23,493 bases of DNA from an uncultured Lachnospiraceae bacterium (GTDB lineage Bacteria > Bacillota > Clostridia > Lachnospirales > Lachnospiraceae), in the NCBI GenBank assembly GCA_902803635.1, contig CADCQU010000171.1, positions 1-23,493 of the forward strand. Reading direction: 5' to 3'. The notes beneath the pieces are model-generated. The model was not told where the DNA came from. It saw only the letters and a program-made list of their open reading frames with translations, and did no database searches. A program made the translations under genes and the position numbers. Within the stretch, counting starts at the first letter, position 1; the number at the start of each line of letters is the position of its first letter. Below are positions 3,456-23,493 of this stretch, piece by piece.

Positions 3456-5699
3456 CTATTTCAGTGTATCCGCCTCGCCGCCGCTGTTTCCAATCTCGCT
3501 GTCGGCGATTGCCTCCTCTCGCATCTCGGGGCCGTAGCCGGTGTTGAGGATGATCTGGCGGCTAAATTCCTTGACCGTCTGCGATGTTTCGTAGGAATCA
3601 AGGTCGTAAAGCCATTTATGAAGCTCAACAACGTTTTCATCCAGCGTAACCGGAATCACGGCGCTCATGATCTGCGGGCTGACATCCTTCCCGAGATGGA
3701 CTGCCGGAAAGCCCGTTGTCTTCTCGATTTCAAAATTGAACATCTTGGTCGCCATCGAGAAGATCTCTCCGACATCAAGACTCGTATAGCAGAGCGGCAG
3801 CACCTCGTCGAGAACGCGGTTGGCCATGCCGATGCCACCCGCCTTCACCTTCTGGATGACCTTCTCGATCACGAGACGCTGGCGCTGCGTGCGCTTCATG
3901 TCCCAGCCGTTGGTGTAACGGATACGGCAGTAGGCCGTCGCCTGGATTCCGTTCAAATGGTACTCGTGCGGCTCCTGCCCAACGAAGACCTCCAGCGGGT
4001 ACACCTGCTCACCGGTGATGGCCGCCGTCTCCACCTGGTAGTTGTTACAGTGGATGGCCTCCTGGTCGGTGAGCGTCACGTCGATGCCGCCCACGGCATC
4101 AACCAGCTTGATGACCGCCTTGAAATCGACCACCGCGTAGTCCTTGATGTTGAGGTCCAGGTTCGCGTTAATCATCGAGATGAGCTGCGGGGCACTGCCC
4201 AGGTTGTAGGCCGCATTTGCCTTATTGTACTGGTACTTGTTAACATTCTCCGGGCTCATAATGTTGAGGTAGGTGTCACGGTAGACCGAGACCAGCCGCA
4301 CCTTGCCCGTGCTGTTGTTGATGTTGCAAATAATCATCGTGTCGCTGTTGGCATAGTCGATCACGTCGGAGTCGCGGCTATCGATACCGACCAGAAGGAG
4401 GTTGGTGTAGCCAGACATCGTGTTGTCCTTCTTCACGTGCTCATCGACATAGACATCGTCCACGTCATGGACCTTCTGCACCTTGAGGTCGCGGCCAATG
4501 AGGCTGTACTTCCCAAACACGAAGGCCACGACAAATACCAGGACACCCAGAAGGACGAGGAGGAAGCTCATGAGGGCAATCATGCCAGCACTGCGTTTTT
4601 TCTTGGGCTTTCCCCTTCCAGCACTTCCAGCACTTCTGGGCGGATTCCCCGGATTCCTCGGCGGGACGTTCGAACCGCCGCTGCGGCCCTGGCCGCTGCC
4701 GCCCTTCATTTCCCGCCGGATCTGGCCGTTGGCAACCCGTCCGGTTGCTCCGGCCGGTCGCGCCTGCGCCGTCTGCCCGTTTGGGTTTGTCCTTGGGCGG
4801 GCCGGACGCTGCTGGCCGGCCTGCGCCTGTGCTGTTGTCTGGGGACGCGCGGTTCCCTGGGCGTTCCGCTGGGTTCCGGAAACGGTGCCCTGCGCCCGCT
4901 GCGGATTCTGCCGCTGGACGGCCTGGCCGTTTGACGCATACGCGCCGCCTGCCGCCCGCTGGGTAGCCTGGGCCTGTGCATACTGGGGATTTACAGGCCT
5001 TTGCCCGCCCTGCCCCTGCACGTACTGGCCGTTTGCGGTCCTCTGCCCGCCCTGCCTCTGCGCGTACTGGCCATTTGCGGTCCTCTGGACATTCTGTCCC
5101 TGCGTATACTGGCCATTTGCGGTTCTCTGGACACTCTGTCCCTGCGCGTACTGGCCGTTTGCGGGCCTTTGCCCGCCCTGCCTCTGCGCGTACTGACCAT
5201 TTGCTGATCTCTGGACATTCTGTCCCTGCGCGTACTGACCATTTGCCGTACGCTGGACGGCCTGCCCCTGTCCGGACTGTGCGTTTGCGGGACGCTGGCC
5301 ATTTGCCGCATACTGACCATTTCCGATCCGCTGCACGTTCTGTCCCTGCGGCCGCTGGCCGCCCTGCGATGTCCGCTGCCCGGCTCGCGCCTGTGCCTGT
5401 CGGCTGTAGGGATTCTGGCTGGCCGCCTGGGCCTGCCGCATATAGTAGCCACTCTCGACGGTTGCATTTGTCGCTTGCAGCTGCGCGTTCCGGGCATTCC
5501 CGTTATTTCCAACATTCCCTTCGGAAGCCCCACCCGCCATATTTGCCGTATTTCTGTAGGTGGTAGCGTCCTGCTCCTGGTAGTGCCCGCCGGGCATATG
5601 CTTGTCCGTGTAAGCAAATCGGCTGGTATGGCCCGTCTTCGCGGAGCTTTCCCTTGTCTCCTCCGGGTACCACCCGTTCTCGTCATACTTATCCGCCAT
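3456..5699 (-). CDS. LytR-CpsA-Psr (LCP) family cell-wall polymer ligase with a long Gln/Asn-rich N-terminal tail
   Basis: LCP enzymes move glycopolymers from undecaprenyl pyrophosphate to peptidoglycan on the outer face of the membrane. Counting from the start used here, residues 1-370 are low-complexity and Gln/Asn/Gly/Arg-rich. They include about ten 13-residue repeats around QRTANGQYAQGQ at roughly 111-245. A basic KPKKKR stop-transfer cluster precedes one transmembrane helix at about 371-396. The LCP domain follows from about 430, with LLLVGIDSRD, NSDTM (451-455), the Arg-Asp of VYRDT (472-476), and the conserved arginines of CRIRYTNGWD and RTQRQR (591-608). The start is placed at MADKYDENG because a GAGG-type site lies just upstream. 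An ATG 45 bp further up sits inside a hairpin and lacks a ribosome-binding site. It follows the initiating transferase gene by 89 bp, which suits a final attachment step. The catalytic call is secure; the tail is unusually long. Confidence 0.93.
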   Translation of the reverse strand: MADKYDENGWYPEETRESSAKTGHTSRFAYTDKHMPGGHYQEQDATTYRNTANMAGGASEGNVGNNGNARNAQLQATNATVESGYYMRQAQAASQNPYSRQAQARAGQRTSQGGQRPQGQNVQRIGNGQYAANGQRPANAQSGQGQAVQRTANGQYAQGQNVQRSANGQYAQRQGGQRPANGQYAQGQSVQRTANGQYTQGQNVQRTANGQYAQRQGGQRTANGQYVQGQGGQRPVNPQYAQAQATQRAAGGAYASNGQAVQRQNPQRAQGTVSGTQRNAQGTARPQTTAQAQAGQQRPARPRTNPNGQTAQARPAGATGRVANGQIRREMKGGSGQGRSGGSNVPPRNPGNPPRSAGSAGRGKPKKKRSAGMIALMSFLLVLLGVLVFVVAFVFGKYSLIGRDLKVQKVHDVDDVYVDEHVKKDNTMSGYTNLLLVGIDSRDSDVIDYANSDTMIICNINNSTGKVRLVSVYRDTYLNIMSPENVNKYQYNKANAAYNLGSAPQLISMINANLDLNIKDYAVVDFKAVIKLVDAVGGIDVTLTDQEAIHCNNYQVETAAITGEQVYPLEVFVGQEPHEYHLNGIQATAYCRIRYTNGWDMKRTQRQRLVIEKVIQKVKAGGIGMANRVLDEVLPLCYTSLDVGEIFSMATKMFNFEIEKTTGFPAVHLGKDVSPQIMSAVIPVTLDENVVELHKWLYDLDSYETSQTVKEFSRQIILNTGYGPEMREEAIADSEIGNSGGEADTLK
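4965..5369 (-). repeat. 39-bp in-frame tandem repeat array in the LCP gene
   Basis: About ten degenerate copies of a 13-codon unit encode variants of TANGQYAQGQNVQR (third copies read QRQGGQRP). The period is 39 bp and in frame, so recombination or slippage could change tail length without disrupting the enzyme. Copies differ at both silent and amino-acid-changing positions, which suggests an old array with partial homogenisation. Confidence 0.85.
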
Positions 5700-5726
5700 A
5701 AGAACCTCAACTTTCCTGCCAGGCTG

Positions 5727-5759
5727 CCCCAAGGCACCCGCCATGTTTGTCGCTTGGGG
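5727..5759 (-). other. Leader hairpin upstream of the LCP gene
   Basis: A perfect 7-bp inverted repeat, CCCCAAG (5727-5733) and CTTGGGG (5753-5759), encloses a 19-nt loop. It lies 27 bases before the chosen LCP start codon. There is no T-run after it on the minus strand, so it is not a terminator. It may be an mRNA leader structure, and it contains the rejected upstream ATG. Confidence 0.35.
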
Positions 5760-5788: not shown

Positions 5789-7195
5789 TCAATAGGCATT
5801 CTTGTTGACAAATCCGTTGAAGACCGTGAGGAACAGGATCTTGATGTCCAGTCCGATGGTCCAGTTTTCAATATAGTAAAGATCGTAATCAATCCGCCGC
5901 CGGATCGAGGTGTCGCCCCGGTAGCCGTGGATCTGCGCCCAGCCCGTCATGCCCGGACGCACCTGGTGCTTGACCATGTACCGCGGAATCTCCTCCTGGA
6001 ATTTTTCCACGTAGTAGGGCCGCTCCGGCCGCGGGCCGACGAGGGACATCTCGCCCTTCAGCACGTTGAAGAGCTGCGGGAGCTCGTCGATGCTGGTCTT
6101 GCGCATGAAGCGGCCGACAGGGGTCACCCGCGGGTCGTCCCGCACGGTCCACGCCTTGCTTTCCTTGTTCGGCTCCTGGACGACCATGGAGCGGAACTTG
6201 TACATGGTGAAGGGACGGTTGTGAAGGCCCACCCTCTCCTGCCGGAAAATCAGCGGTCCGGGGGATGTGGCCTTGATAATGATGGCGCAAATCAGCATCA
6301 CAGGAGATGCGATGATAATGCACACAAGACTCCCGAGGATGTCCATCAGGCGCTTCAATGCCGCCGAAAACGTATTTGTCAGCGGGACGTAGCGGATGTT
6401 GATAACCGGGAGTCCGAGGATGTCCTCGGTGTACGGTTTTGTCGGAATAATATTATAATAGTCAGGTATGAATTTTGTGTGAACTCCTGATTTTTCGCAG
6501 AGCGCGACGATTGATTCCAGGCGGTGGTACTCCGAGAGGCCCAGGGTGATGGCAATCTCATCCAGATGGTTCTCCGGGAGGATAACCATCAGGTTGTCAA
6601 TCCGTCCAAGCACCTTGATGCCCTTGTACATGGTGCCGGCCTCGATCCGGTCATCGAGGATGCCTCGGATGTTGAAGCCCCACTGGGGATTCGCGGTCAC
6701 GCGGTCAATATACTCCTCGGCAGCGCGGCTGTAGCCCACCAAAAGGACGTGGCGCTGGTTGCGCCCGTCCCTTCGGACACGCCGAAGGATGCCCCAGAGC
6801 AGAAAACGCACGGTGGTGTCAAGGAAGACGTTCAGGATAAAGAACATCACGATCATCGACCGCGACCAGTCCTGCTGGTGGGCAAGCTGCAAGGTGGCAA
6901 GGAAAATCAGAAGGCCGATGCCATTTGCCTCCAGGATGGCGGCAATCTCCAGCCGCCGGCCCTTGACGCGGCTTGGCGAATATAGATTGAAGGCCGAATA
7001 AAAGACCAGCATCACCGGAATCACGATGAGGAGCGCCCGGAGGTAGGTGTCGAGGGAAATGACCTCGACCGCCGTATCCTCGAACCAGCGGCTCCGGTAC
7101 CGGAGATACCAGGAAAAGACGTAGGCGAAAACGAGGACGACCGCATCGACCACCGCCAGAAACCGGCTAAAGTATTTCTGATTTTGTTCGATCAT
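5789..7195 (-). CDS. Undecaprenyl-phosphate sugar phosphotransferase (polyprenyl glycosylphosphotransferase, WbaP type)
   Basis: This enzyme starts the polysaccharide by moving a sugar-1-phosphate from a nucleotide sugar to undecaprenyl phosphate at the inner membrane face. The 468-residue protein has four N-terminal transmembrane helices. A Rossmann-like cytoplasmic domain follows, beginning HVLLVGYS at about 149. Then come a membrane hairpin near 285-308 and the C-terminal catalytic domain. Catalytic-domain motifs are FRQERVG (about 317-323), KFRSM (333-337), [20 protein letters not shown] (370-389) and [15 protein letters not shown]. Together these match the full-length WbaP/undecaprenyl-phosphate glucose phosphotransferase group. 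The first sugar (glucose or galactose) cannot be told. The ATG at 7193-7195 is chosen because GAGGAG (7201-7206) is 5 nt upstream; a GTG two codons earlier abuts that site. A promoter at 7247-7275 serves it, so initiation and attachment can be transcribed apart from the main operon. Confidence 0.94.
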
Positions 7196-7246
7196 GCCCA
7201 CTCCTCGTCTGCAACAGAATCTTTATATAATTCCCTTCAAAGAAAG

Positions 7247-13970: not shown

Positions 13971-14885
13971 TTATTCCTCTTCCGCCTTCAAAATCTCGAC
14001 ATACCGGTGCAGCGCGTCCTGCCACTCCGGGAGCGGCGTAAAGCCCTCGCGAACCAGCTTCGAGCGGTCCATCCGCGAGTTGTACGGGCGCTTCGCCTTC
14101 GCCCCGTACTCCTCTGAGGTCACCGGCGACACCGTCACATTTGTCACGCCCGCCTCCTCGAAGATGGCCTTCGCAAACTCGTACCAGGAAAGGTAGGGGC
14201 CTTCATTTGTCACATGGTAAATGCCGTACCGGTCGGTCGTGATCATGTCGACGACCAGCCTCGCGAGGTCGTAGGTGTAGGTCGGCGTCCCAATCTGGTC
14301 CGAAACCACGGTCAGGTGGTCGTGGGTCTTCGCCAGCCGGAGCATCGTGCGGATGAAGTTCTTGCCGTTCCTGCCGAACACCCAGGCGATGCGGAGGATG
14401 AAGAACTTCGAAAGGTTCTCCTTCACCGCGACCTCGCCCTCGGCCTTGGTCGCCCCGTAAACCCCGAGCGGCTCGTAGGCGTCGTCCGGCTCCCACGGGC
14501 GGGTGCCATTTCCGTTAAATACGTAATCTGTCGAGAAATACATCATCGGAATATCCAGCTTTTTGCACGCCTCCGCAATGTTGCGGGTGCCTTCCGCATT
14601 GACCTTCCGGCAAATGTCCGGGCACTCTTCCGCCTTGTCGACGGCGGTCCAGGCCGCGCAGTGGACGACGGCGTCCGGTGCAAGCTCACAAATGGCCTTT
14701 TCCACGGCGGCCTTGTCGGTGATGTCCAGAGAAATATAGGGGAGACGCGTCACGGCCGTCCCGTCCGCAAGGCCCGCATAGGCCGGAGCAAGATCCGTGC
14801 CCACGGCCGCAAAGCCGCGCGCATCCAGCTCGTTCATCACATCGTGGCCGAGCTGCCCCGCCACGCCAGTCACAAAAATCTTCAT
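13971..14885 (-). CDS. rfbD: dTDP-4-dehydrorhamnose reductase
   Basis: This enzyme catalyses the last step of dTDP-L-rhamnose synthesis, reducing dTDP-4-dehydro-L-rhamnose with NAD(P)H. The 304-residue protein is a short-chain dehydrogenase of the RmlD group. The dinucleotide motif TGVAGQLG is at about 5-12, YFSTDYVFNG lies near the active site, and the catalytic Tyr-Lys pair is in VYGATKAEGE. Length is normal for the family. The start is the ATG at 14883-14885, six bases after GAGGAGG (14892-14898). A GTG 15 bp upstream would read through that site and is rejected. The stop codon of the preceding transferase overlaps the same site, so translation is probably coupled. rfbA, rfbB and rfbC are not in this window and must lie elsewhere. 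Its presence is the best evidence that the polymer contains rhamnose. Confidence 0.95.
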   Translation of the reverse strand: MKIFVTGVAGQLGHDVMNELDARGFAAVGTDLAPAYAGLADGTAVTRLPYISLDITDKAAVEKAICELAPDAVVHCAAWTAVDKAEECPDICRKVNAEGTRNIAEACKKLDIPMMYFSTDYVFNGNGTRPWEPDDAYEPLGVYGATKAEGEVAVKENLSKFFILRIAWVFGRNGKNFIRTMLRLAKTHDHLTVVSDQIGTPTYTYDLARLVVDMITTDRYGIYHVTNEGPYLSWYEFAKAIFEEAGVTNVTVSPVTSEEYGAKAKRPYNSRMDRSKLVREGFTPLPEWQDALHRYVEILKAEEE

Positions 14886-14891
14886 AATATG

Positions 14892-14898
14892 CCTCCTC
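14892..14898 (-). promoter_or_regulatory. Ribosome-binding site that decides the rfbD start
   Basis: GAGGAGG on the minus strand lies 6 nt before the rfbD ATG and overlaps the TGA (14897-14899) of the upstream transferase gene. It rules out the longer GTG start, whose second and third codons would be the site itself. Confidence 0.8.
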
Positions 14899-17362
14899 AC
14901 AGCTTCTTCAGCGAGAAATCCTGCGTCACCATCGAAAGGTTCGGGTTGTAGTACGGGTCGCCGTCGCGGAGGATCTCCGGCCAGCGCTTCTGGAACGTCG
15001 CCATCTCCCCCTGGAAGCGGCGGACCTTCTCCGGGTCGCCCTGGTCGAGGCCGCGAGACTTCGACTCGTAGTGGTGCAGCTCCGCGAACGGGTTATATAC
15101 AATGAGGTAGCCCGCCTGACGAATCTTCATGCAGAGGTCAATGTCGTTGAACGCGACGGCCAGCCCCTCGTAGAAGCCGCCCACCTCGTCAAAGACGTCC
15201 CGCCGCACCATCATGCAGGCGGCGGTCACCGCCGAATAGTTCTGCTGCAGGATGATCCGGTGCTGGTAGCCCGAGACGCTGCGGAGCTGGTTCACAAAAG
15301 CATGCCCCGCGATACCGCCCCAGCCGACGACCACGCCGGCATGCTGAATCGTATTGTCCTCGTAGAAGAGCCGCGCCCCGACCGCGCCGACGTCCGGCCG
15401 CATGCAGTAGCCCAGCATCTCCTCGAAGGCGTTATCCGCCATCAGCTCGGTATCGTTATTTAAAAGAAGCAGGTACGGGGCATCCGTGAACTGCGCTCCG
15501 AAGTTGTTGATGGCCGAATAGTTAAAGCTGCCCTCGTAGGTCACGACCTTCACGTTGTCGTGCTCCTCCTTAAGCTTCTCGTAGTACGCGAACGTCTCCG
15601 GCTCCGTGCTGTTGTTCTCCACGATCAGGATGTCGTAGTTCGGATACTTCTCCTTCTTAAAGATGCTCTGGAGGCATTTGTCGAGATCCTCCACATGGTC
15701 TTTATTCGGAATCAGCACCGTCAGCTGCGGCTGCTCCTCCCAGTGCCAGCGCGTCCGGTAAATTCCCGGGTACTGGCCCATCTCGGCCGTCGCCGGGAGG
15801 CCGAGCCTCTTGTAATGGTCATTGATGGCCCGCTCGCCGGCCTCGAAGGCGTAGAGCTTGCTCTCGGGATTCGCGGACGTTGAGCCCTCGAAGAACCGCC
15901 AGAAGTAGAGGATTTTCGGGATATGCACGATGTTTTCCGGCTTCGTGTTCTCCGTGCAGCGGAGGATGAAGTCATAGTCCTGCGCTCCGTCGTAATCGGA
16001 ACTGAAAGTCCCCACCTTCTCGACGAGCTCGCGCTTTACGACAAGGAAGTGGCAAATGTAGTTGACCGAGCAGAGGAAGTCCGGCGCGTAGTCCGGCTTC
16101 ATGTTGGGCTGCATGTGGTGCCGCGCCTCGTCCACCTTGTCCTCGTCCGAATACAGCATCTCCGCCTCCGGATGCTTCCGCAGGGCGTCCGCATTTTCGT
16201 AGAGTGCGTGGGGCGCGAGGATGTCGTCGTGGTCCAGAAAGCCGATGAAATCGCCCGTCGCCACGGCCATCGCCGCATTTGTATTATCCGCAATCCGGAG
16301 CTGCTTCCCGTCGTTCCGCACCACGCGGATGCGCCCGTCGCTCGCCTCCACGCGGTCCAAAAGCGCCGTAAACGCCGCCCGGTCGAAGAGCTTCTCATCA
16401 TCGGGGCTTCCCTGCCCCGAGCCGTCGCTTAAGATCAGCTCCCAGTTCGCGTAAGTCTGCTCCCGCACGGAATTGACCATCTCCCACAGGTACTCCTCCG
16501 GCGTCCGGTAGAGCGGGACGCAGATGGAGAATTTCGGGGCGGGATCAAAGACCTCCTCCCTCTGCATGGCCAGGACCTTCTTGTTCGGCAAATGCTTCTC
16601 GATCCAGGCGCCGTAGTTGATGGGCCGCCGCGAGGGGTCGAAGAACTTCTCCCAGGTCTTCTTGATGACGACCGTCGGCCCGTAGTATTTGACGTATTGC
16701 GTCCCGCGCTTCATCAAATGCCCGGCCTTCTCCATCTTCATAGAAAGGGCGTCCGTCTTCAGCTCACGGAGCATCCGCTCGTCGCCGGCCCGGAGCGCAA
16801 GATAAATCCGTTTTTTCGGAATTGGCCGAATTTCTGTCGTAAAACCGCAGTTCTTCTCAATCTCGTACTCCTCAAAGATGTCCGAGACGTCCGGGCGCGG
16901 GTACCGCTTGATCTTGCAGGGGATACGTTTTTTATTCTCATCGAGGACCACCAGCTCGACCGGATTCAGGGCCGCCGCCCAGCCGGTCACGCGGAGGCAC
17001 CCCTCCTCCTTTATGGGGACGCACTCGTCGAGGAAGAGCTTGATGGGACGCTTTTTCTCCACCAGCTCCTTCGCGGTAATCTCAAAGGCAAGGTGCCGGC
17101 CCTTCCGCCCTTCCGAGTAGAGGCAGAGCTTCCCGCGGAGAATCTGCACCCCGGAGAGGTCCACGTAGACCACCGCCTCCGCACCCCCGTACCGCTCGTC
17201 CACGTTGTCCGTGTTCTTCTCGACCTTCGCCGGGAAGGGCGAGCCGTCAAGGGTAACATATAGACGGGTGTCCGGAACCAAATGCCCGCGCAGGATGTAC
17301 AGCCCCTCCTCCGTCAGGGAAAACCGGTCGCTGCGAATCAAGAAACCATTATTGACAACCAT
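14897..17362 (-). CDS. Tandem GT2 glycosyltransferase with an N-terminal beta-rich domain, 821 aa
   Basis: Residues 1-115 and about 118-192 look beta-rich. The second part has the pattern VTGWA, then KKRIP, RPDV and CGFTTEI. This aligns with residues 471-528 of the neighbouring 1164-residue protein, so the two share an accessory domain. A linker with YVKYYG...NYGAWIEKH leads to GT2 domain 1 (from about 277). Its motifs are NTNAAM at 360-365, DHDD at 377-380, YSDEDK and QDYDF. GT2 domain 2 (from about 546) has FNYSAINNFG, LLLLNND at 631-637 and FNDIDLC. Both active sites look complete. The enzyme is cytoplasmic and probably adds two linkages or polymerises a repeat. It begins 27 bp after the 1164-residue gene, with a GGAGAGG site, and its stop overlaps the rfbD ribosome-binding site. 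Donor sugars are unknown; rhamnose is plausible from context. Confidence 0.9.
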   Translation of the reverse strand: MVVNNGFLIRSDRFSLTEEGLYILRGHLVPDTRLYVTLDGSPFPAKVEKNTDNVDERYGGAEAVVYVDLSGVQILRGKLCLYSEGRKGRHLAFEITAKELVEKKRPIKLFLDECVPIKEEGCLRVTGWAAALNPVELVVLDENKKRIPCKIKRYPRPDVSDIFEEYEIEKNCGFTTEIRPIPKKRIYLALRAGDERMLRELKTDALSMKMEKAGHLMKRGTQYVKYYGPTVVIKKTWEKFFDPSRRPINYGAWIEKHLPNKKVLAMQREEVFDPAPKFSICVPLYRTPEEYLWEMVNSVREQTYANWELILSDGSGQGSPDDEKLFDRAAFTALLDRVEASDGRIRVVRNDGKQLRIADNTNAAMAVATGDFIGFLDHDDILAPHALYENADALRKHPEAEMLYSDEDKVDEARHHMQPNMKPDYAPDFLCSVNYICHFLVVKRELVEKVGTFSSDYDGAQDYDFILRCTENTKPENIVHIPKILYFWRFFEGSTSANPESKLYAFEAGERAINDHYKRLGLPATAEMGQYPGIYRTRWHWEEQPQLTVLIPNKDHVEDLDKCLQSIFKKEKYPNYDILIVENNSTEPETFAYYEKLKEEHDNVKVVTYEGSFNYSAINNFGAQFTDAPYLLLLNNDTELMADNAFEEMLGYCMRPDVGAVGARLFYEDNTIQHAGVVVGWGGIAGHAFVNQLRSVSGYQHRIILQQNYSAVTAACMMVRRDVFDEVGGFYEGLAVAFNDIDLCMKIRQAGYLIVYNPFAELHHYESKSRGLDQGDPEKVRRFQGEMATFQKRWPEILRDGDPYYNPNLSMVTQDFSLKKL

Positions 17363-17389: not shown

Positions 17390-20300
17390 TTACCTTTTTT
17401 TGTCCCCCGCCTTCATCTTCCGGGAAAGCTCCTGCAGCGGGGTATAGCCCTCGGGCATCGTCCCGGCGAGGACGTAGTCGGCCGCGTTGTACTCCAGGTT
17501 CGGGTTCCAGTACGGATCCCCCTTCTGGAAGATCTCCGGCCATTTTTTGCGGAGGATCCGCGCCTCCGAAAGCTGCCGTTCACGCTTTGCGTCGTCCAAT
17601 TCGTCAAGCCCGCGCGAGACGGACTCATAGTGGTAGAGCTCGCAGAACGCATCGTAAACCACCAGAAGGCCCATTTGCCGGACCTTGAGGCAGAGGTCCA
17701 CGTCGTTGTAGGCGACGGCCATCTGCTCGTCAAAGCCGCCAACCGTCCGGTAAAGGTCGGCGGGGATCATGAGGCAGGCCCCCGTAACCGCCGAGACGTC
17801 CTGGCTCTTCGCGACGCGGCCGAAATACCCGCCGGACGAGCGCTTCTCTCCCGCGCAAATGTGCCCGGCGATGCCGCCGATGCCCACCACGACGCCGCAG
17901 TGCTGCAGGGTGTCGTTCGGGTAGTAGAGCCGCGCCCCGCAGATGCCAACGTCCTTTCGCTGGCAGTAGCCGAGCATTTCCTCCAGCCAGCGGTCGGTGA
18001 TGACCTCCGTGTCGTTGTTGAGGAACAACAGGAACTCGCCCCTCGCCTCGCGGGCCGCGTAGTTGTTGATTGCGGAGAAATTAAACTCGCTAAGCCAATT
18101 AAGGACCTTCACATTGTCATGCTCCGCCTTCAGCTTTTCATAATAGGCAAATGTCTCCGCCTCGACACTGTTGTTTTCCGCCAGGATAATTTCGAAATTC
18201 CTGTAAGTAGATTTTTCAAATATAGAATTGACGCACCGCTCCAGAACCTCCCTGTGGTCCTTCGTGGGAATGATGATGGAGATGAGCGGCTCGCCCTGCA
18301 CGCGGTAAATGCTCCGGAAGCACCCGATGTCGCGGGCGAGTTCGACGCTCGCCGGAATGCCGAGGCGGTCGTAGTGCTCCTGCACCGCCCGGCGGCCCCG
18401 CTCGTATGCATAGAGCTTGCTCTCCGGATTGCCCGCCGTCGACTCGTCGTAGGCCCGCCAGTGGTAGAGGAAGCGCGGTACGTGTACGATTTTCTTCGCC
18501 TTCTCGCAGCAGCGGAAAATAAAGTCGTGGTCCTGCGCCCCGTCAAATTCGCTCCGCTCGTAGCGTCCGTCGGGCGAGGCTTCATCCGCGACCTCCCGTT
18601 TTACGCAGAAAATGTGCGTAATATAGTTGTTGCTGCAAAGAAGGTCCGGGTTGTAGTCCGGCTTAAAGTTCGGGCTGTAGAAGGTCTCCTTCTCCGGCAG
18701 CTGCTTGTCCTCATCCGTATAGATGACGTCCGCACCTGGATTTTCGTTGATGGCCTTCACCACCTCGTAGAGCGCGTCCGGCTCCAGAATGTCGTCGTGG
18801 TCGGCGAGCAGCAAAAACTCGCCCCGCGACATGCGGATCGCGGCATTTGTATTGCCCGAAATGCCTTCATTTTCCGCAAGCTTCTGGTAGGAAACCCGCT
18901 TGTCCACAAGGTAGCGGTTCCGGATAAGCCGGCCCGGCCCGGGATCGGTGCTCCCGTCCGCAAGGCAGACCTCAAGGTTCCGGTAGGACTGCCCCAGAAT
19001 GCTGTCCATGAGAGCGATCAGATACTCTTCCTTCGTATTATAGAGCGGAATGACCACGCTCACCAGCGGGCTGTACGCCGGCTGGTTGGCCGTCTGGCGA
19101 AGGAACTCCGCCTTCGTGATCTGCCGGTCACGGAACCAGTCGTCGTAGCCCTCGTCGTCCACCGCAAAGACCGGCGCCCCGTGCTCGCGCATATAGGCCT
19201 CCCGCACCTTCGGGTCGAGGAGGATGCGGGGCGTTAGCGTGATATAGCCCTCCGGATTGTCAAAGGCCAGCGTAATCTTCGGCTTTTTAATCTCCTTATC
19301 CGGGATTTTGATGACAAAGCCTGCCTTCAGGTCCTTGTCGAGGAGGTACGGGCCGTTGACGTCCTTGCGGAAGACCCAGCGGAGCCGCATTGGAAGCACC
19401 CGCTTGCCCTCCAGCGCGACGATGTTCGGCACCTCGTGCCGACCGTCAAAGGCCCAGCCGCGAAGGACGACCTGCCCTCCCTGGTAGAGGACCTGATCAA
19501 TCTTCGCCTTCATCTCTGTCTGGTCCTTGTCCAGCGGCTGCCGAAGCTCCGCGAGCGGATCCGGCTTACCGGAGCTTTTAAGAAGGGTGCGGTAGAAGCC
19601 CATCGAACGGTTGCCCTCGGTTTTTGCGAGGATGTCGGCGTGCGAAAGTGCGCGTTCCCGAAGCTCCCGGTACTTCCGTTTGGCCTCGGCAAGCTCGCTT
19701 CGAACGTAGGCGAGCTCCGACCGCATGCTGAGCACGTCCGCGGTCTCCCGCAGCAAATGCTCCGCCTCGGCGGAGGAGATGGGCGCAATCTTCATGGAAA
19801 TGCGGATCTCGGCGGCCTCCACATGGTCGAAGGTAATCTTCGGATCCTCGTCGGGGAACAAAATGCGGTCCTCGGCAAGGAGCCGCCCCTCGATAATGGC
19901 CGTCGAAAGCGCTATCGGCTTCCCGTCGGCCTCCACGTGGATGTCCGTCACAAGGCACGGAAGCTCCGTCGGGTCGATGCGGAAGGAATGTGCGCGGATG
20001 AGTGGGAACCGTAGATTCGCGATACCATTTACATCTGCATTTTCGCGAAGAATGTTCTTCTCCGTAAAGCCCTCGCCCTGGTCGATGTAGACGGTGACCG
20101 TCTTCTTCCCGTCGCCGTAGAGGAACTCGCCGGTGGACTTGTCAATCCGCACAAGGCCCGGAGAAATGGACGCATAGAGGTTGCGGAAGGGCACATGCCC
20201 CTCCTCCAGCCTCCGCTGGAACTCGATTTCCATCTCATAGTAGCGGCTCTTGCGGTCGAGGTCAATGTCGGCCGTCTCGAAAAGGCCGGCCTCCGAAAGC

Positions 20301-20884
20301 AGGGCCTCGCGGCCCGTGCGCGTGCCAAAATAGTGGAGGATCCGCCATTTGAGGAAGCTCACCGGGACGGGGCAAAGCAGCGTCCACTCGTAATCGATGA
20401 CCGTCCATTTGTCACCCGTGACGAAAATGTTCTCGGGAAGAAGGTCGATGTCGGCCGGTAAGACCGCCCTCTGGCCTTCGAGGCCCTCCCAGTGGCCCAT
20501 CCAGCGCAAAAAGACGTCCGTCTCGGAAAATTCGGTGTTCGCAAGGCTATCGACCTCCGAGAGAAGGTCGAGAAGCAGGGAGATGCCCTCCTCCTCGTCT
20601 CTCTGGAAGGCCTCCTCCAGGACTTCTTCGAGGCTCTTTGCCTTCAGGTATTCGAAGACCGCGCTCCCATTGTCGAGAAGACGCGCCTTGTTGGGCACGA
20701 ACCTCGTGCCCTCAAAGGCCTTCCCCAGAAGGCTGCCGATCTTCACCATGGACGCGACATGCTCCTTCGCCTCCGGAAAGAGCGGGCGCTTCCGGACATA
20801 CTTGATCCCGTCAAGGCTCTCGATCGTGGTCACCACCGCCGTGTTCCGCCCCCGCTCCGTACCGTACTTTACGTATTCAATCAT
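17390..20884 (-). CDS. Kinase-like domain + beta-rich region + coiled coil + tandem GT2 polymerase fusion, 1164 aa
   Basis: Residues 1 to about 230 resemble an aminoglycoside-phosphotransferase/protein-kinase fold. A candidate ATP lysine is in YVRKRPL (Lys32), a hinge-like VFEYLKAKSLEE lies at 76-87, and IDLLPENIF (146-154) mirrors the kinase catalytic loop with Asp147 and Asn152. Asp164 in IDYEW stands in for DFG. About 245-367 is a beta-rich region (DQGEGFTEKN). Residues 377-408 form a heptad coiled coil (a/d: L377, V384, M387, L391, V394, L398, A401, Y405, L408). About 462-540 is a GWA-type beta domain shared with the 821-residue protein. GT2 domain 1 runs from about 606 (DHDD 695-698, YTDEDK, QDHDF). 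Domain 2 runs from about 866 (FLNND 954-958, YNDVDLC). The AGGAGG at 20892-20897 overlaps the methyltransferase stop. The GT2 assignment is certain. The kinase fold rests on motifs only, and its function as a chain-capping kinase is inference. Confidence 0.85.
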   Translation of the reverse strand: MIEYVKYGTERGRNTAVVTTIESLDGIKYVRKRPLFPEAKEHVASMVKIGSLLGKAFEGTRFVPNKARLLDNGSAVFEYLKAKSLEEVLEEAFQRDEEEGISLLLDLLSEVDSLANTEFSETDVFLRWMGHWEGLEGQRAVLPADIDLLPENIFVTGDKWTVIDYEWTLLCPVPVSFLKWRILHYFGTRTGREALLSEAGLFETADIDLDRKSRYYEMEIEFQRRLEEGHVPFRNLYASISPGLVRIDKSTGEFLYGDGKKTVTVYIDQGEGFTEKNILRENADVNGIANLRFPLIRAHSFRIDPTELPCLVTDIHVEADGKPIALSTAIIEGRLLAEDRILFPDEDPKITFDHVEAAEIRISMKIAPISSAEAEHLLRETADVLSMRSELAYVRSELAEAKRKYRELRERALSHADILAKTEGNRSMGFYRTLLKSSGKPDPLAELRQPLDKDQTEMKAKIDQVLYQGGQVVLRGWAFDGRHEVPNIVALEGKRVLPMRLRWVFRKDVNGPYLLDKDLKAGFVIKIPDKEIKKPKITLAFDNPEGYITLTPRILLDPKVREAYMREHGAPVFAVDDEGYDDWFRDRQITKAEFLRQTANQPAYSPLVSVVIPLYNTKEEYLIALMDSILGQSYRNLEVCLADGSTDPGPGRLIRNRYLVDKRVSYQKLAENEGISGNTNAAIRMSRGEFLLLADHDDILEPDALYEVVKAINENPGADVIYTDEDKQLPEKETFYSPNFKPDYNPDLLCSNNYITHIFCVKREVADEASPDGRYERSEFDGAQDHDFIFRCCEKAKKIVHVPRFLYHWRAYDESTAGNPESKLYAYERGRRAVQEHYDRLGIPASVELARDIGCFRSIYRVQGEPLISIIIPTKDHREVLERCVNSIFEKSTYRNFEIILAENNSVEAETFAYYEKLKAEHDNVKVLNWLSEFNFSAINNYAAREARGEFLLFLNNDTEVITDRWLEEMLGYCQRKDVGICGARLYYPNDTLQHCGVVVGIGGIAGHICAGEKRSSGGYFGRVAKSQDVSAVTGACLMIPADLYRTVGGFDEQMAVAYNDVDLCLKVRQMGLLVVYDAFCELYHYESVSRGLDELDDAKRERQLSEARILRKKWPEIFQKGDPYWNPNLEYNAADYVLAGTMPEGYTPLQELSRKMKAGDKKR

Positions 20885-20895
20885 CCAAAAGCCTC

Positions 20896-21816
20896 CTATT
20901 TCCCGGTAATCTCCACCAAGAACGAGTTCGAAAACAGTGGGAACAGACCGTCCTGGATCAGCGAGTCAAATGCCTCCTTCTCGTCAAAGAGAACGAGCCG
21001 CCTGCGGTCGAAGTTCCGGATATTGTCCGAAAGACTGCCGGGCTTCGGCAGATTCTCATCCGAGAAAATGACCGTCGGGAACTTGTAGTCCGGGTACGGG
21101 TAGAAGAACTTCCACTCCTTCGCCCCCGCGGCCGCGATCACCTTCTCAAGGCCCGGCTTCGAGAACGTCCTTGCCCGCCGCGTATGGTTGTAGCCCTCGA
21201 TGCCCTCGAAATAGTTCCCCGTGTGGTCCTCGGTGCAGCCGGCGAAATATTTGAGGCCGAGGCGGTTCTCGATCGCCATGAGCACCTTCCCGCCGGGCTT
21301 TAAATGCCGGAGGATCTGCTGCAGAAACCCCACATACGGCTCCGGGCTCTTGATGTAGCTTGACGCGTACTCAAACACCCCGATGAGAGTGATGACATCG
21401 TAGTCATTTGGCAAATGCTTCTCGACATCCTCGTAGTTCCCGAGGAAAATGCGCAGGTTGTCCGCGTCCTTGTTGCGGTAGGCATTGACAAGGCTCCGCT
21501 TCCGCGAAAGCTCCACGCAGTCCACCTGGCCGGCATTTGCCGTGATGGCCCCTGTGATCGCACCGCAGCCGGAGCCAACCTCCAGCACCTTCATCTCCCG
21601 CGTAAACGGAAAATGCCGGAGGATGTTTTGGCGAGCCGACGAGAAATGGTACATGACAGGCCAGCTCTCCTCCTGGGCCACCACCTTGTCAAAATTCGCC
21701 GGGTCCGTCCTCCGCGCGATCTCCACCAGGAGGTCCTCGACGTTCCCGTCGCTGTAGAGGTCCGCCCCCGGATAATCGTCCAGAACCAGCTCCACACTGC
21801 CGATCTTCTCAACCAT
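20896..21816 (-). CDS. Class I SAM-dependent methyltransferase, candidate polysaccharide chain-cap methylase
   Basis: The 306-residue protein has the SAM-binding motif I VLEVGSGCGAITG at 77-89 and an acidic ribose-binding residue in DCVELS (99-104). Further Rossmann strands are at DVITLIGVFEY and GKVLMAIENRLG. The 75-residue N-terminal extension and the C-terminal 100 residues (tyrosine- and phenylalanine-rich) are outside the core. The start is the ATG at 21814-21816. GGAGGAGGG lies 8 nt before it, and the start overlaps the wzt stop by 8 bp, so translation is probably coupled to wzt. A longer start 51 bp upstream would lie deep in wzt and lacks a good site. The next gene starts 11 bp later with a kinase-like domain. 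By comparison with WbdD of E. coli O9a it may methylate the non-reducing end of the chain or a phosphate on it. It could equally methylate a sugar along the chain. Confidence 0.88.
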   Translation of the reverse strand: MVEKIGSVELVLDDYPGADLYSDGNVEDLLVEIARRTDPANFDKVVAQEESWPVMYHFSSARQNILRHFPFTREMKVLEVGSGCGAITGAITANAGQVDCVELSRKRSLVNAYRNKDADNLRIFLGNYEDVEKHLPNDYDVITLIGVFEYASSYIKSPEPYVGFLQQILRHLKPGGKVLMAIENRLGLKYFAGCTEDHTGNYFEGIEGYNHTRRARTFSKPGLEKVIAAAGAKEWKFFYPYPDYKFPTVIFSDENLPKPGSLSDNIRNFDRRRLVLFDEKEAFDSLIQDGLFPLFSNSFLVEITGK

Positions 21817-23191
21817 GTACAAGTCCCTCCTCCCCCTCCACAATCGTAACCTGCGAATCCATATCATAATATCCCACGGTATTCTTGGTCGATATGACCG
21901 TAATCCCGATCACGTCGTAGAGCCTGTGGAACACGCGGAACTGCCCCTCGTGGTAGCCTGTGCAGCCGAGCGAGAGCAGATACTCCCCGCCCTGCAGGTT
22001 CATCTTCTGCCGGAATGAGACCGTGATCACGTCCCCGTCATCCTTGTGTCCGGGGGGGTGCTCCTCGTACCAGGTATTCGTCCCCGTAATCTCCGTCCCC
22101 TGCAGATTCTTGAACGTATATGCCACAATCGGGTCGTCTACGGAGCTGTGGAAACGGACGGTCACCTGGATCGTGAACTCCGTCCCCTTCTCGATACTGC
22201 CCGTCTCATTTCCATTCGCATCATATATGCGGATCCGGACGAAATTTGCCTGTCCCTCACCGTACTCAATCGTGTTCGGATTCCGGTCCAGAACACCCGT
22301 AAGCTCGCTCTTGATCTTCTTTACGGCCTTTTCCGTTCCGGCCGCATTTGCCAACACCGATTCGCCGTTCTCTCCGTCCGTATTCCCGGCGGTAGCCGCA
22401 TTTGCGTCCTCAGAGCCTTCCGGGGCATCCCCGGAGTCAAGGTTTACGAGAAGCTTCTTATATAAATCCACCATCTCGCGCGGCTCGCCCTCGGCGCGCT
22501 TTACGCCCTTGTTGAGGAGCACCACGCGGTCGCAGTACTTGGAAATGCTGGAGAGGTCGTGGCTCACAAAGAGGATCGTCTTGCCCTGTGCCTTGAACTC
22601 CTCGAACTTATGGTAGCACTTCGACTGGAAAAAGACGTCGCCCACCGAGAGGGCCTCGTCCACGATCAGAATCTCCGGGTCGATATTGATGGCCACGGCA
22701 AATGCCAGCCGCACGAACATGCCGCTGGAATAGGTTTTGCAGGGCTGGTTCACGAAATCGCCGATATCGGCAAATGTCAGGATGCTGTCCATCCGGGCAT
22801 CGATTTCCTCTCTCGAAAACCCCATCATCGTGCCATTTAAATACACATTCTCAAGGCCCGTATACTCCATATTAAAGCCGGCCCCGAGTTCAAGAAGCGC
22901 GGATATGCGTCCATTCACCGTGACCGTGCCGGAGGTCGGGGTCAGCACCCCGGTGATAATCTTCAAGATCGTCGATTTACCGGAGCCATTCGTCCCGATG
23001 ATGCCCACCGTCTCCCCCTGCCGCACCGAGAAGCTCACGTCGTTCAGCGCGTAGAGATCCCGGTGCCGGTTCTTCTTTGAAAGCCCCAAAGCCTCCTTCA
23101 GCCGGTCCGAGGGCCTGTCATAGAGATGATATATTTTCGTCAAATTCTGCACCGAAAGTGCAGTTCTAACTTCTTGTTGCTCAAACGCCAT
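21809..23191 (-). CDS. wzt: ABC transporter ATP-binding protein with C-terminal carbohydrate-binding domain (Wzt type)
   Basis: This is the ATPase subunit of an ABC exporter for a lipid-linked polysaccharide. Of 460 residues, about 1-245 form the nucleotide-binding domain. It contains Walker A GTNGSGKST (66-74), the signature YSSGM (154-158, the usual variant in the Wzt/TagH group), Walker B EILIVDEA (173-180) and switch His211. Residues about 250-300 are an acidic, Ala/Asn-rich flexible linker. About 305-450 is a beta-sandwich like the Wzt C-terminal domain, with FVRIRIYDANG, a typical EKGTEFTIQV strand and the GGEYLLSLG strand. In E. coli O9a and O8 this extension binds the capped chain end and is needed for export, so it implies a specific end modification here. 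It follows the permease by 120 bp and overlaps the methyltransferase start. Confidence in the family is very high; the ligand is unknown. Confidence 0.95.
   Translation of the reverse strand: MAFEQQEVRTALSVQNLTKIYHLYDRPSDRLKEALGLSKKNRHRDLYALNDVSFSVRQGETVGIIGTNGSGKSTILKIITGVLTPTSGTVTVNGRISALLELGAGFNMEYTGLENVYLNGTMMGFSREEIDARMDSILTFADIGDFVNQPCKTYSSGMFVRLAFAVAINIDPEILIVDEALSVGDVFFQSKCYHKFEEFKAQGKTILFVSHDLSSISKYCDRVVLLNKGVKRAEGEPREMVDLYKKLLVNLDSGDAPEGSEDANAATAGNTDGENGESVLANAAGTEKAVKKIKSELTGVLDRNPNTIEYGEGQANFVRIRIYDANGNETGSIEKGTEFTIQVTVRFHSSVDDPIVAYTFKNLQGTEITGTNTWYEEHPPGHKDDGDVITVSFRQKMNLQGGEYLLSLGCTGYHEGQFRVFHRLYDVIGITVISTKNTVGYYDMDSQVTIVEGEEGLVHG
21825..21833 (-). promoter_or_regulatory. Ribosome-binding site that decides the methyltransferase start
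   Basis: GGAGGAGGG on the minus strand, inside the last codons of wzt, lies 8 nt before the chosen ATG. It supports the shorter 306-residue product and coupling to wzt translation. Confidence 0.75.
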
Positions 23192-23246
23192 TCCAATCCC
23201 TCAATTATTTCCATCTGTACGTTTTGCCCAAAAAGTAACGTTTTTT

Positions 23247-23277
23247 GTCATTCTGAGGTGCGCAGCGCCGAAGAATC
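23247..23277. repeat. REP-like palindromic intergenic repeat
   Basis: The sequence reads GTCATTCTGAGG...CGAAGAATC on the plus strand. It pairs ATTCT (23250-23254) with AGAAT (23272-23276), and GGTGC (23257-23261) with GCGCC (23265-23269). It matches from memory a class of small intergenic palindromes (GTCATTCTGAG-n-CGAAGAATC) seen in many unrelated bacterial genomes. It sits in the 120-bp gap between the permease and wzt. The T-run is on the plus-strand 5' side, so it is not a terminator for the operon. Confidence 0.6.
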
Positions 23278-23311
23278 CCGTCAACCCGAAGAGCAATGAA
23301 AAGAAATTCAA

Positions 23312-23493
23312 TTACAATACATCCGCAAAATGTACCCGCAGCCGCCGGAAAATGGACGTTCCAAGGAGGAACAGGAGGAGCGTGATGATCCAGAAGTACA
23401 GGGTCATCCCCAAATGCTCCGTAAACCACACCTTCCCATAAATCGCCTCCCGGTAACCGTTGATGACATAGTACATCGGGTTGATCTTGAAAA
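23312..23493 (-). CDS. wzm: ABC-2 type polysaccharide export permease, C-terminal end (partial, Wzm/TagG-like)
   Basis: Only the last 59 residues lie in the window; the 5' part is beyond its right edge. The fragment begins FKINPMYYVINGYREAIYGK, has one hydrophobic helix (about 31-48, YFWIITLLLFLLG) and ends RRLRVHFADVL. Both the NP...YR segment and the terminal HFADVL are highly characteristic of Wzm/TagG permeases that work with Wzt-type ATPases. It would form the membrane channel for the lipid-linked polysaccharide. The stop is TAA at 23312-23314. The assignment is strong despite the short length because the adjacent gene encodes the matching ATPase. Confidence 0.88.
   Translation of the reverse strand, partial: FKINPMYYVINGYREAIYGKVWFTEHLGMTLYFWIITLLLFLLGTSIFRRLRVHFADVL

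Follow-up and report, generated by a model that had tools for sequence, protein, structure and literature searches.

Known chain terminators of exported glycans

The locus described here, a methyltransferase gene followed by a gene for a 1164-amino-acid kinase/glycosyltransferase protein, lies on contig CADCQU010000171.1 of an uncultured Lachnospiraceae bacterium (one entire contig of 23493 bases from an 88.65%-complete genome, hereafter the window), and the closest machine known is the ORF6 protein of Klebsiella pneumoniae O7, not WbdD of Escherichia coli. ORF6-O7 combines a methyltransferase, an AmiN-like kinase, a carbohydrate-binding module (CBM), a coiled coil and family 2 glycosyltransferase (GT2) modules in a single chain, and in vitro it puts phosphate, partly methylated, on O3 of the terminal rhamnose (PMC11231755). 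The exchange D441A abolishes its kinase activity, and the protein is described as distinct from WbdD (PMC11231755). Orthologues are named from alpha- and gammaproteobacteria and from cyanobacteria, with a homologue in Methanoculleus, and the word Gram-positive is absent from that report (PMC11231755).

In E. coli O9a, the methyltransferase and kinase of WbdD likewise share one chain, which puts methyl-phosphate on the terminal sugar and is served by a Wzt with a CBM; its kinase is described as of the eukaryotic protein-kinase type, it recruits a separate polymerase, and the O9a cap (methyl-phosphate) is set apart from that of O8 (methyl) (PMC3482155). Among Gram-positives, WsaE of Geobacillus stearothermophilus places 2-O-methyl on the end of a rhamnan, a cap that Wzt is predicted to bind (PMC2943079). 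The S-layer glycan of Clostridioides difficile Ox247, exported by an ATP-binding cassette (ABC) transporter, ends in 2,3-cyclophosphoryl-rhamnose without methyl, and its authors compare this phosphate-bearing terminal rhamnose with O9a and propose a role in ending synthesis (PMC6254364). Since these two cases, and a statement that comparable systems exist in Gram-positives (PMC3482155), came before, capping in Gram-positives is not a new idea. Among the papers listed in literature searches (open-licence papers), none treats a terminator of the methyltransferase-kinase kind from Lachnospiraceae or from any other Gram-positive.

A probable terminator locus of the ORF6 type

On the minus strand the genes run from the end of wzm through wzt and the methyltransferase to the kinase/GT2 protein:

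23312..23491, minus: C-terminal 59 residues of a Wzm-type permease, cut by the contig end (translation like the wzm end upstream of wzt in loci L031, L034 and L042)
21809..23191, minus: wzt, encoding an ABC ATPase that ends in a carbohydrate-binding module (ABC_tran and Wzt_C; 40% identity over 452 columns to a Pseudomonas asturiensis homologue)
21860..22273, minus: Wzt_C domain (PF14524, 142.1 bits, above cut-off)
20896..21816, minus: S-adenosylmethionine (SAM) methyltransferase, 306 amino acids from the likely start (Pfam methyltransferase families; start from relatives and Shine-Dalgarno sequence)
17390..20884, minus: 1164-amino-acid protein with a kinase, a beta-rich domain, a long helix and two GT2 modules (domain searches and AlphaFold), and probably a second beta region before GT2 (read from the sequence)
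20180..20884, minus: its kinase domain, residues 1-235 (AlphaFold; Foldseek/VIA matches; alignment)
19781..20101, minus: its beta-rich domain, residues 262-368 (strands in the AlphaFold model)
19619..19774, minus: its long helix, a probable coiled coil, residues 371-422 (AlphaFold secondary structure)
17585..19084, minus: its two GT2 modules, residues about 601-1100 (Glycos_transf_2 in two stretches; 38% identity to the Pseudomonas protein)

The methyltransferase open reading frame spans 20896-21867, and its likely start at 21816, preceded by GGAGG, gives an overlap of 8 nucleotides with the wzt stop; the gene for the 1164-amino-acid protein begins 11 nucleotides past the methyltransferase stop. 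All six SAM-pocket residues published for ORF6-O7 are kept in the window frame (Y38, Y73, G98, G100, E119 and Y167, mapped through the P. asturiensis protein). The first 230 residues of the 1164-amino-acid protein are confidently predicted by AlphaFold as a kinase of the aminoglycoside-phosphotransferase type, with Mph, APH, AmiN and LicA as its matches in Foldseek/VIA, and K32, D147, N152 and D164 are invariant among 30 aligned sequences (the kinase part of 17 fused proteins, 12 separate kinases and that of the window; L048 was excluded here, as it was from the alignment of 17 of the 18 fused proteins). Pfam has no model that matches this kinase, whether that of the window, of four relatives or of the Pseudomonas protein, and no NCBIfam model matches that of the window. 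The beta-rich domain sits where ORF6-O7 has its Ig-like CBM, a correspondence of position; a second beta region probably lies at about residues 460-600 ahead of the GT2 modules, judging by the sequence. The helix, a probable coiled coil, covers 52 residues in the model and precedes the GT2 match at residue 609.

The link to ORF6 runs through a relative on a plasmid of Pseudomonas asturiensis (L141, NZ_CP047266.1 71631-89166), where wzm and wzt accompany a 1457-amino-acid terminator/polymerase protein of ORF6 make-up. It carries the ORF6 residues Y28, Y66, G91, G93, E112 and Y158 at identical numbers and the kinase aspartate at D443 versus D441, and the window resembles it with identities of 40% for Wzt, 35.5% for the methyltransferase and 38% for the GT2 region. 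Its kinase is matched only by the 30-sequence kinase profile (2e-11 for its top-scoring stretch when one sequence is searched).

Like ORF6-O7, the window has a methyltransferase, an AmiN/APH-like kinase lacking domain annotation and an ABC-dependent pathway, together with GT2 modules, and keeps the SAM-pocket and catalytic residues; a beta-rich domain and a modelled helix occupy the places of the CBM and the coiled coil. ORF6-O7 is a single polypeptide, whereas the methyltransferase of the window is a separate gene (one-chain forms occur in L064, L068 and L099); the window also stands apart by its Gram-positive host, the LCP enzyme in its cluster and probably the extra beta-rich region before GT2. 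With WbdD it shares the methyltransferase-kinase logic, the terminal methyl-phosphate as proposed here and a Wzt with CBM, but in the model its kinase best matches the aminoglycoside type, it is fused to GT2, and what WbdD holds in one chain is split over two genes. In the Foldseek list of a fused relative, WbdD entries appear at ranks 26, 36, 37 and 49 (E about 1e-8) amid many plain methyltransferases; the 50 VIA matches listed for each of two structure models do not include WbdD, nor do those listed from two PDB sequence-profile searches (60 of 105 for one of them), which are chiefly methyltransferases with weak protein-kinase rows, e.g., JAK1 (E 0.01 and 0.13). WsaE resembles the window in its Gram-positive host and upstream wzm-wzt, yet its methyltransferase is fused to two glycosyltransferase domains, and these three are its active domains, with no kinase described (PMC2943079), whereas the window has a separate methyltransferase and a kinase. 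The Ox247 system shares the Gram-positive host, and the text on it names neither kinase nor methyltransferase (PMC6254364).

An initial annotation of this DNA had read the order permease, Wzt-type ATPase with a carbohydrate-binding extension, methyltransferase and kinase-coiled coil-GT2 protein, with a kinase fold in residues 1-230, and these features are borne out, the coiled coil as a probable one, by the gene list, the domain matches, the conserved residues and the structure prediction. It had also proposed WbdD-like capping: capping is well supported, and the model for it shifts to ORF6-O7, whose kinase is of the AmiN/APH type. The kinase-polymerase union that it noted has a forerunner in ORF6-O7, which already unites terminator and GT2 modules, and capped chains are not new in Gram-positives, given the WsaE 2-O-methyl and Ox247 cyclophospho-rhamnose ends. 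On the predicted folds, the conserved catalytic residues, a gene order that recurs in relatives, and the pairing with a Wzt_C subtype presented below, all shown by prediction and comparison, we consider it likely that the methyltransferase works with the kinase domain at the start of the 1164-amino-acid protein to terminate chains in the manner of ORF6 of K. pneumoniae O7.

Distribution and gene fusion

Of 100 genomes of the family, that of the window among them, 51 have a strong kinase match, from 54 matches taken down to E 4.5e-33; weaker matches, many spanning the beta domain only, were excluded, as were those of the methyltransferase scan from the linkage count, and a kinase search at E 0.001 reaches 62 of the 100 genomes. 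Upstream of 50 of the 54, on the kinase strand and at most 300 bases away, lies a methyltransferase match, and 46 have Wzt_C upstream within 6 kb. The four without such a methyltransferase match comprise G081 (a weak methyltransferase match 487 bases off), G033 (a match in two pieces, of which only the second was kept), G090 (at a contig start) and G010, which is without any. Methyltransferase, kinase and Wzt_C are tightly linked in many genera, in support of the initial annotation.

Thirty loci were fetched from 33 genomes with a methyltransferase match of E 1e-46 or better (own genome not counted). They comprise 18 methyltransferase-kinase fusions, six three-gene arrangements and six loci that, like the window, have a methyltransferase and then a kinase-glycosyltransferase protein (one so classed from its length only); in 29 of the 30, Wzt_C shares their strand, and in 24 it is at most 200 bases away. 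Among 80 further loci there are 68 fused, five window-like (three by length alone), four three-gene and three single-chain forms, with Wzt_C in 78. These loci (L061-L140) lean to fused forms because they were found with a profile of fused proteins; L069 repeats L039 and L140 repeats L037, and the four window-like loci classed by length, out of 11 (L038, L078, L084 and L104), have no GT2-profile match. L048 (3904-10074) has two tandem methyltransferase-kinase genes (1431 and 622 amino acids) behind a single wzt, and in L066 (7343-8719, Clostridium puniceum) a 458-amino-acid protein upstream of wzt matches the kinase/beta profile too.

The separate methyltransferase that the initial annotation pointed out is an ordinary state and a minor variant, with 12 of the 30 relatives unfused. 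A split by frameshift or assembly error is ruled out by those 12 and by two database clusters with identical length and start. A special feature it is not either: a quick tree of 45 methyltransferases (14 of them hand-picked for variety) needs 11 changes between fused and split states, at least four of them forced by starred branches.

The fusions also bear on the best-placed alternative, in which the kinase yields a phospho- or cyclophospho-sugar end that stays unmethylated and the methyltransferase acts on a sugar hydroxyl elsewhere. The Ox247 glycan, ending in cyclophosphoryl-rhamnose without methyl (PMC6254364), is a precedent for such an end. Nevertheless, 18 of the 30 loci have the two enzymes in one protein, and the architecture is shared with ORF6-O7, which makes methyl-phosphate in vitro, if incompletely methylated (PMC11231755), and we regard this alternative as unlikely.

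Pairing of the kinase with a Wzt_C subtype

The 100 genomes hold 75 Wzt_C matches, 47 strong (E below 1e-38) and 28 others, and a kinase lies within 6 kb of 45 of the 47 strong ones versus 1 of the 28 others. In the genomes of the two strong matches without a nearby kinase (G034 and G066), the kinase lies on another contig. For each of the 28 others the locus was inspected, with flanks of a few kb, some ended by contig ends. In six of them (L151, L152, L153, L155, L174 and L175) a kinase-less methyltransferase-beta protein of 375-610 amino acids stands beside wzt (about 1 kb from it in L155); here a different methyltransferase joins a related beta domain directly, with no space for a kinase. 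These six are possible methyl-only terminators; the remaining 21 loci show neither a kinase nor such a protein in the inspected flanks. The L151-L153 proteins end in a coiled-coil-like stretch and a STSWKxTKPxR-type tail, and this tail is similar to that of some kinase-bearing relatives such as L053.

On a quick tree of 73 Wzt C-terminal regions (G018 and G064 are absent from it), the kinase label needs three changes, compared with a mean of 23.1 after shuffling and none as low in 500 shuffles, and the 44 kinase rows as a single clade are not rejected (approximately unbiased test, p-AU 0.643). Two strong rows labelled as lacking the kinase (L187 and L194) have it on a different contig of the genome. 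This pairing is what the reading of a cap by Wzt predicts, and the division into kinase-bearing and kinase-less forms possibly parallels, by analogy, that of E. coli O9a and O8. The second ABC ATPase of the genome (G000:C35:8317-8670; L143, L179) has a Wzt_C match below cut-off, and the 8.2 kb inspected there show neither such a methyltransferase nor such a kinase.

The kinase-less proteins could be enlisted for a methyl-only cap in the WsaE or O8 style, with the kinase-like domain of the window as a non-catalytic scaffold or sugar-binding part, and WsaE does make a 2-O-methyl cap (PMC2943079). We find this quite improbable: all 30 aligned kinases keep the catalytic lysine and the two aspartates, and the kinase accompanies a Wzt_C subtype of its own. 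Slightly less probable still is a modification of internal sugars, lipid or protein, with wzt nearby through operon packing only, for although small-molecule kinases, the choline kinase LicA among them, appear in the structural matches, the location directly behind wzt, the fusion to a polymerase and the pairing with one Wzt_C subtype argue against it.

Several points weigh against a terminating pair of the ORF6 type. By BLAST, the window kinase does not match that of the Pseudomonas relative significantly (E 0.11), and the link to ORF6-O7 is drawn from its published residues and this relative, not from the ORF6 sequence. Joint inheritance of operon neighbours could predict nearly the same Wzt_C pairing, and in the Wzt tree the branches are long and strongly supported forks are few, 9 of 70 being starred. 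The probable coiled coil is short (52 residues) compared with the long ruler of WbdD, and at least 40 residues past the kinase/beta profile are found in just 15 of 86 fused relatives (median 6); a coiled-coil ruler, seemingly missing from most of these, is thus not general. A phylum sample of 149 genomes shows the kinase in two at E 1e-20 (the window's own and one of its family), a strict limit that distant forms would escape. Neither was rmlC found in the incomplete genome, where rmlB appears only below cut-off, so rhamnose is unsure as the cap target; both may lie past the contig end or in the missing part of the genome. Finally, few relatives have an LCP homologue near the module (3 of the 30 and 5 of the 80), which makes wall attachment a guess for the window, unsupported as a family trait.

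Host and surrounding cluster

Those database relatives of the methyltransferase that bear a name, few in number, belong to Lachnospiraceae, Blautia and other Eubacteriales, and the 80 contigs of the fused-module scan are in the majority Lachnospiraceae or genera such as Blautia. A same-family genome, G082, is that of Anaerosacchariphilus polymeriproducens (Lachnospiraceae), as its locus L039 is identical over 10 kb to L069, a locus under that species name. Blautia sp. MSJ-19 and Roseburia hominis An869 are further named carriers of the module. LpxC was not found in the 88.65%-complete genome, and owing to this and to the relatives we take the host to be a Gram-positive member of Lachnospiraceae, as had been supposed; a Gram-negative host is ruled out on the same grounds. 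The L092 contig, which also has the module, was assigned to a Candidatus Gastranaerophilales bin, perhaps in error for Lachnospiraceae.

Further along, the cluster encodes YfhO-like and PMT-like membrane proteins, other GT2 genes, an HtrA-like protein and the following:

14897..17362, minus: second polymerase-like protein, 821 amino acids, two GT2 domains (40% identity to the Pseudomonas GT2 region)
13971..14900, minus: rmlD, dTDP-4-dehydrorhamnose reductase (TIGR01214, 307.2 bits, cut-off 224.05)
5789..7201, minus: WcaJ-type undecaprenyl-phosphate glucose phosphotransferase, probable initiating enzyme (TIGR03023, 507.2 bits, cut-off 410.75)
3456..5744, minus: LCP-family glycopolymer transferase, possible wall attachment (TIGR00350, 87.6 bits, cut-off 62.3)

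The LCP transferase has an N-terminal part of about 390 residues beyond its LCP domain.

Proposed mechanism and meaning

We infer that the GT2 modules would lengthen an undecaprenyl-linked glycan in the cytoplasm until the kinase, separated from them by the helix, phosphorylates the terminal non-reducing sugar; the methyltransferase from the coupled gene would then methylate this phosphate and so halt growth. The CBM of Wzt would recognise the capped end for export of the chain by Wzm/Wzt, and the LCP enzyme may link the exported chain to peptidoglycan. The terminator module itself is real, well conserved and common in Lachnospiraceae. More tentatively, as a serious possibility to which we do not quite commit, phosphate-methyl capping with cap-gated ABC export could be standard for a surface glycan of Lachnospiraceae, prominent among the families of gut Gram-positives, the cap switching between methyl-phosphate and methyl-only along with the Wzt domain that reads it, and the catalytic domains being freely split and re-fused between genes.

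If the proposed mechanism is true, length control by terminal methyl-phosphate, which has been studied in Gram-negative O antigens, also governs surface glycans of common gut Gram-positives, and their non-reducing end bears a specific chemical mark that can be checked (31P, O-methyl). The kinase-bearing and kinase-less terminators with their matching Wzt domains would also offer a natural comparison for how Wzt reads the cap.

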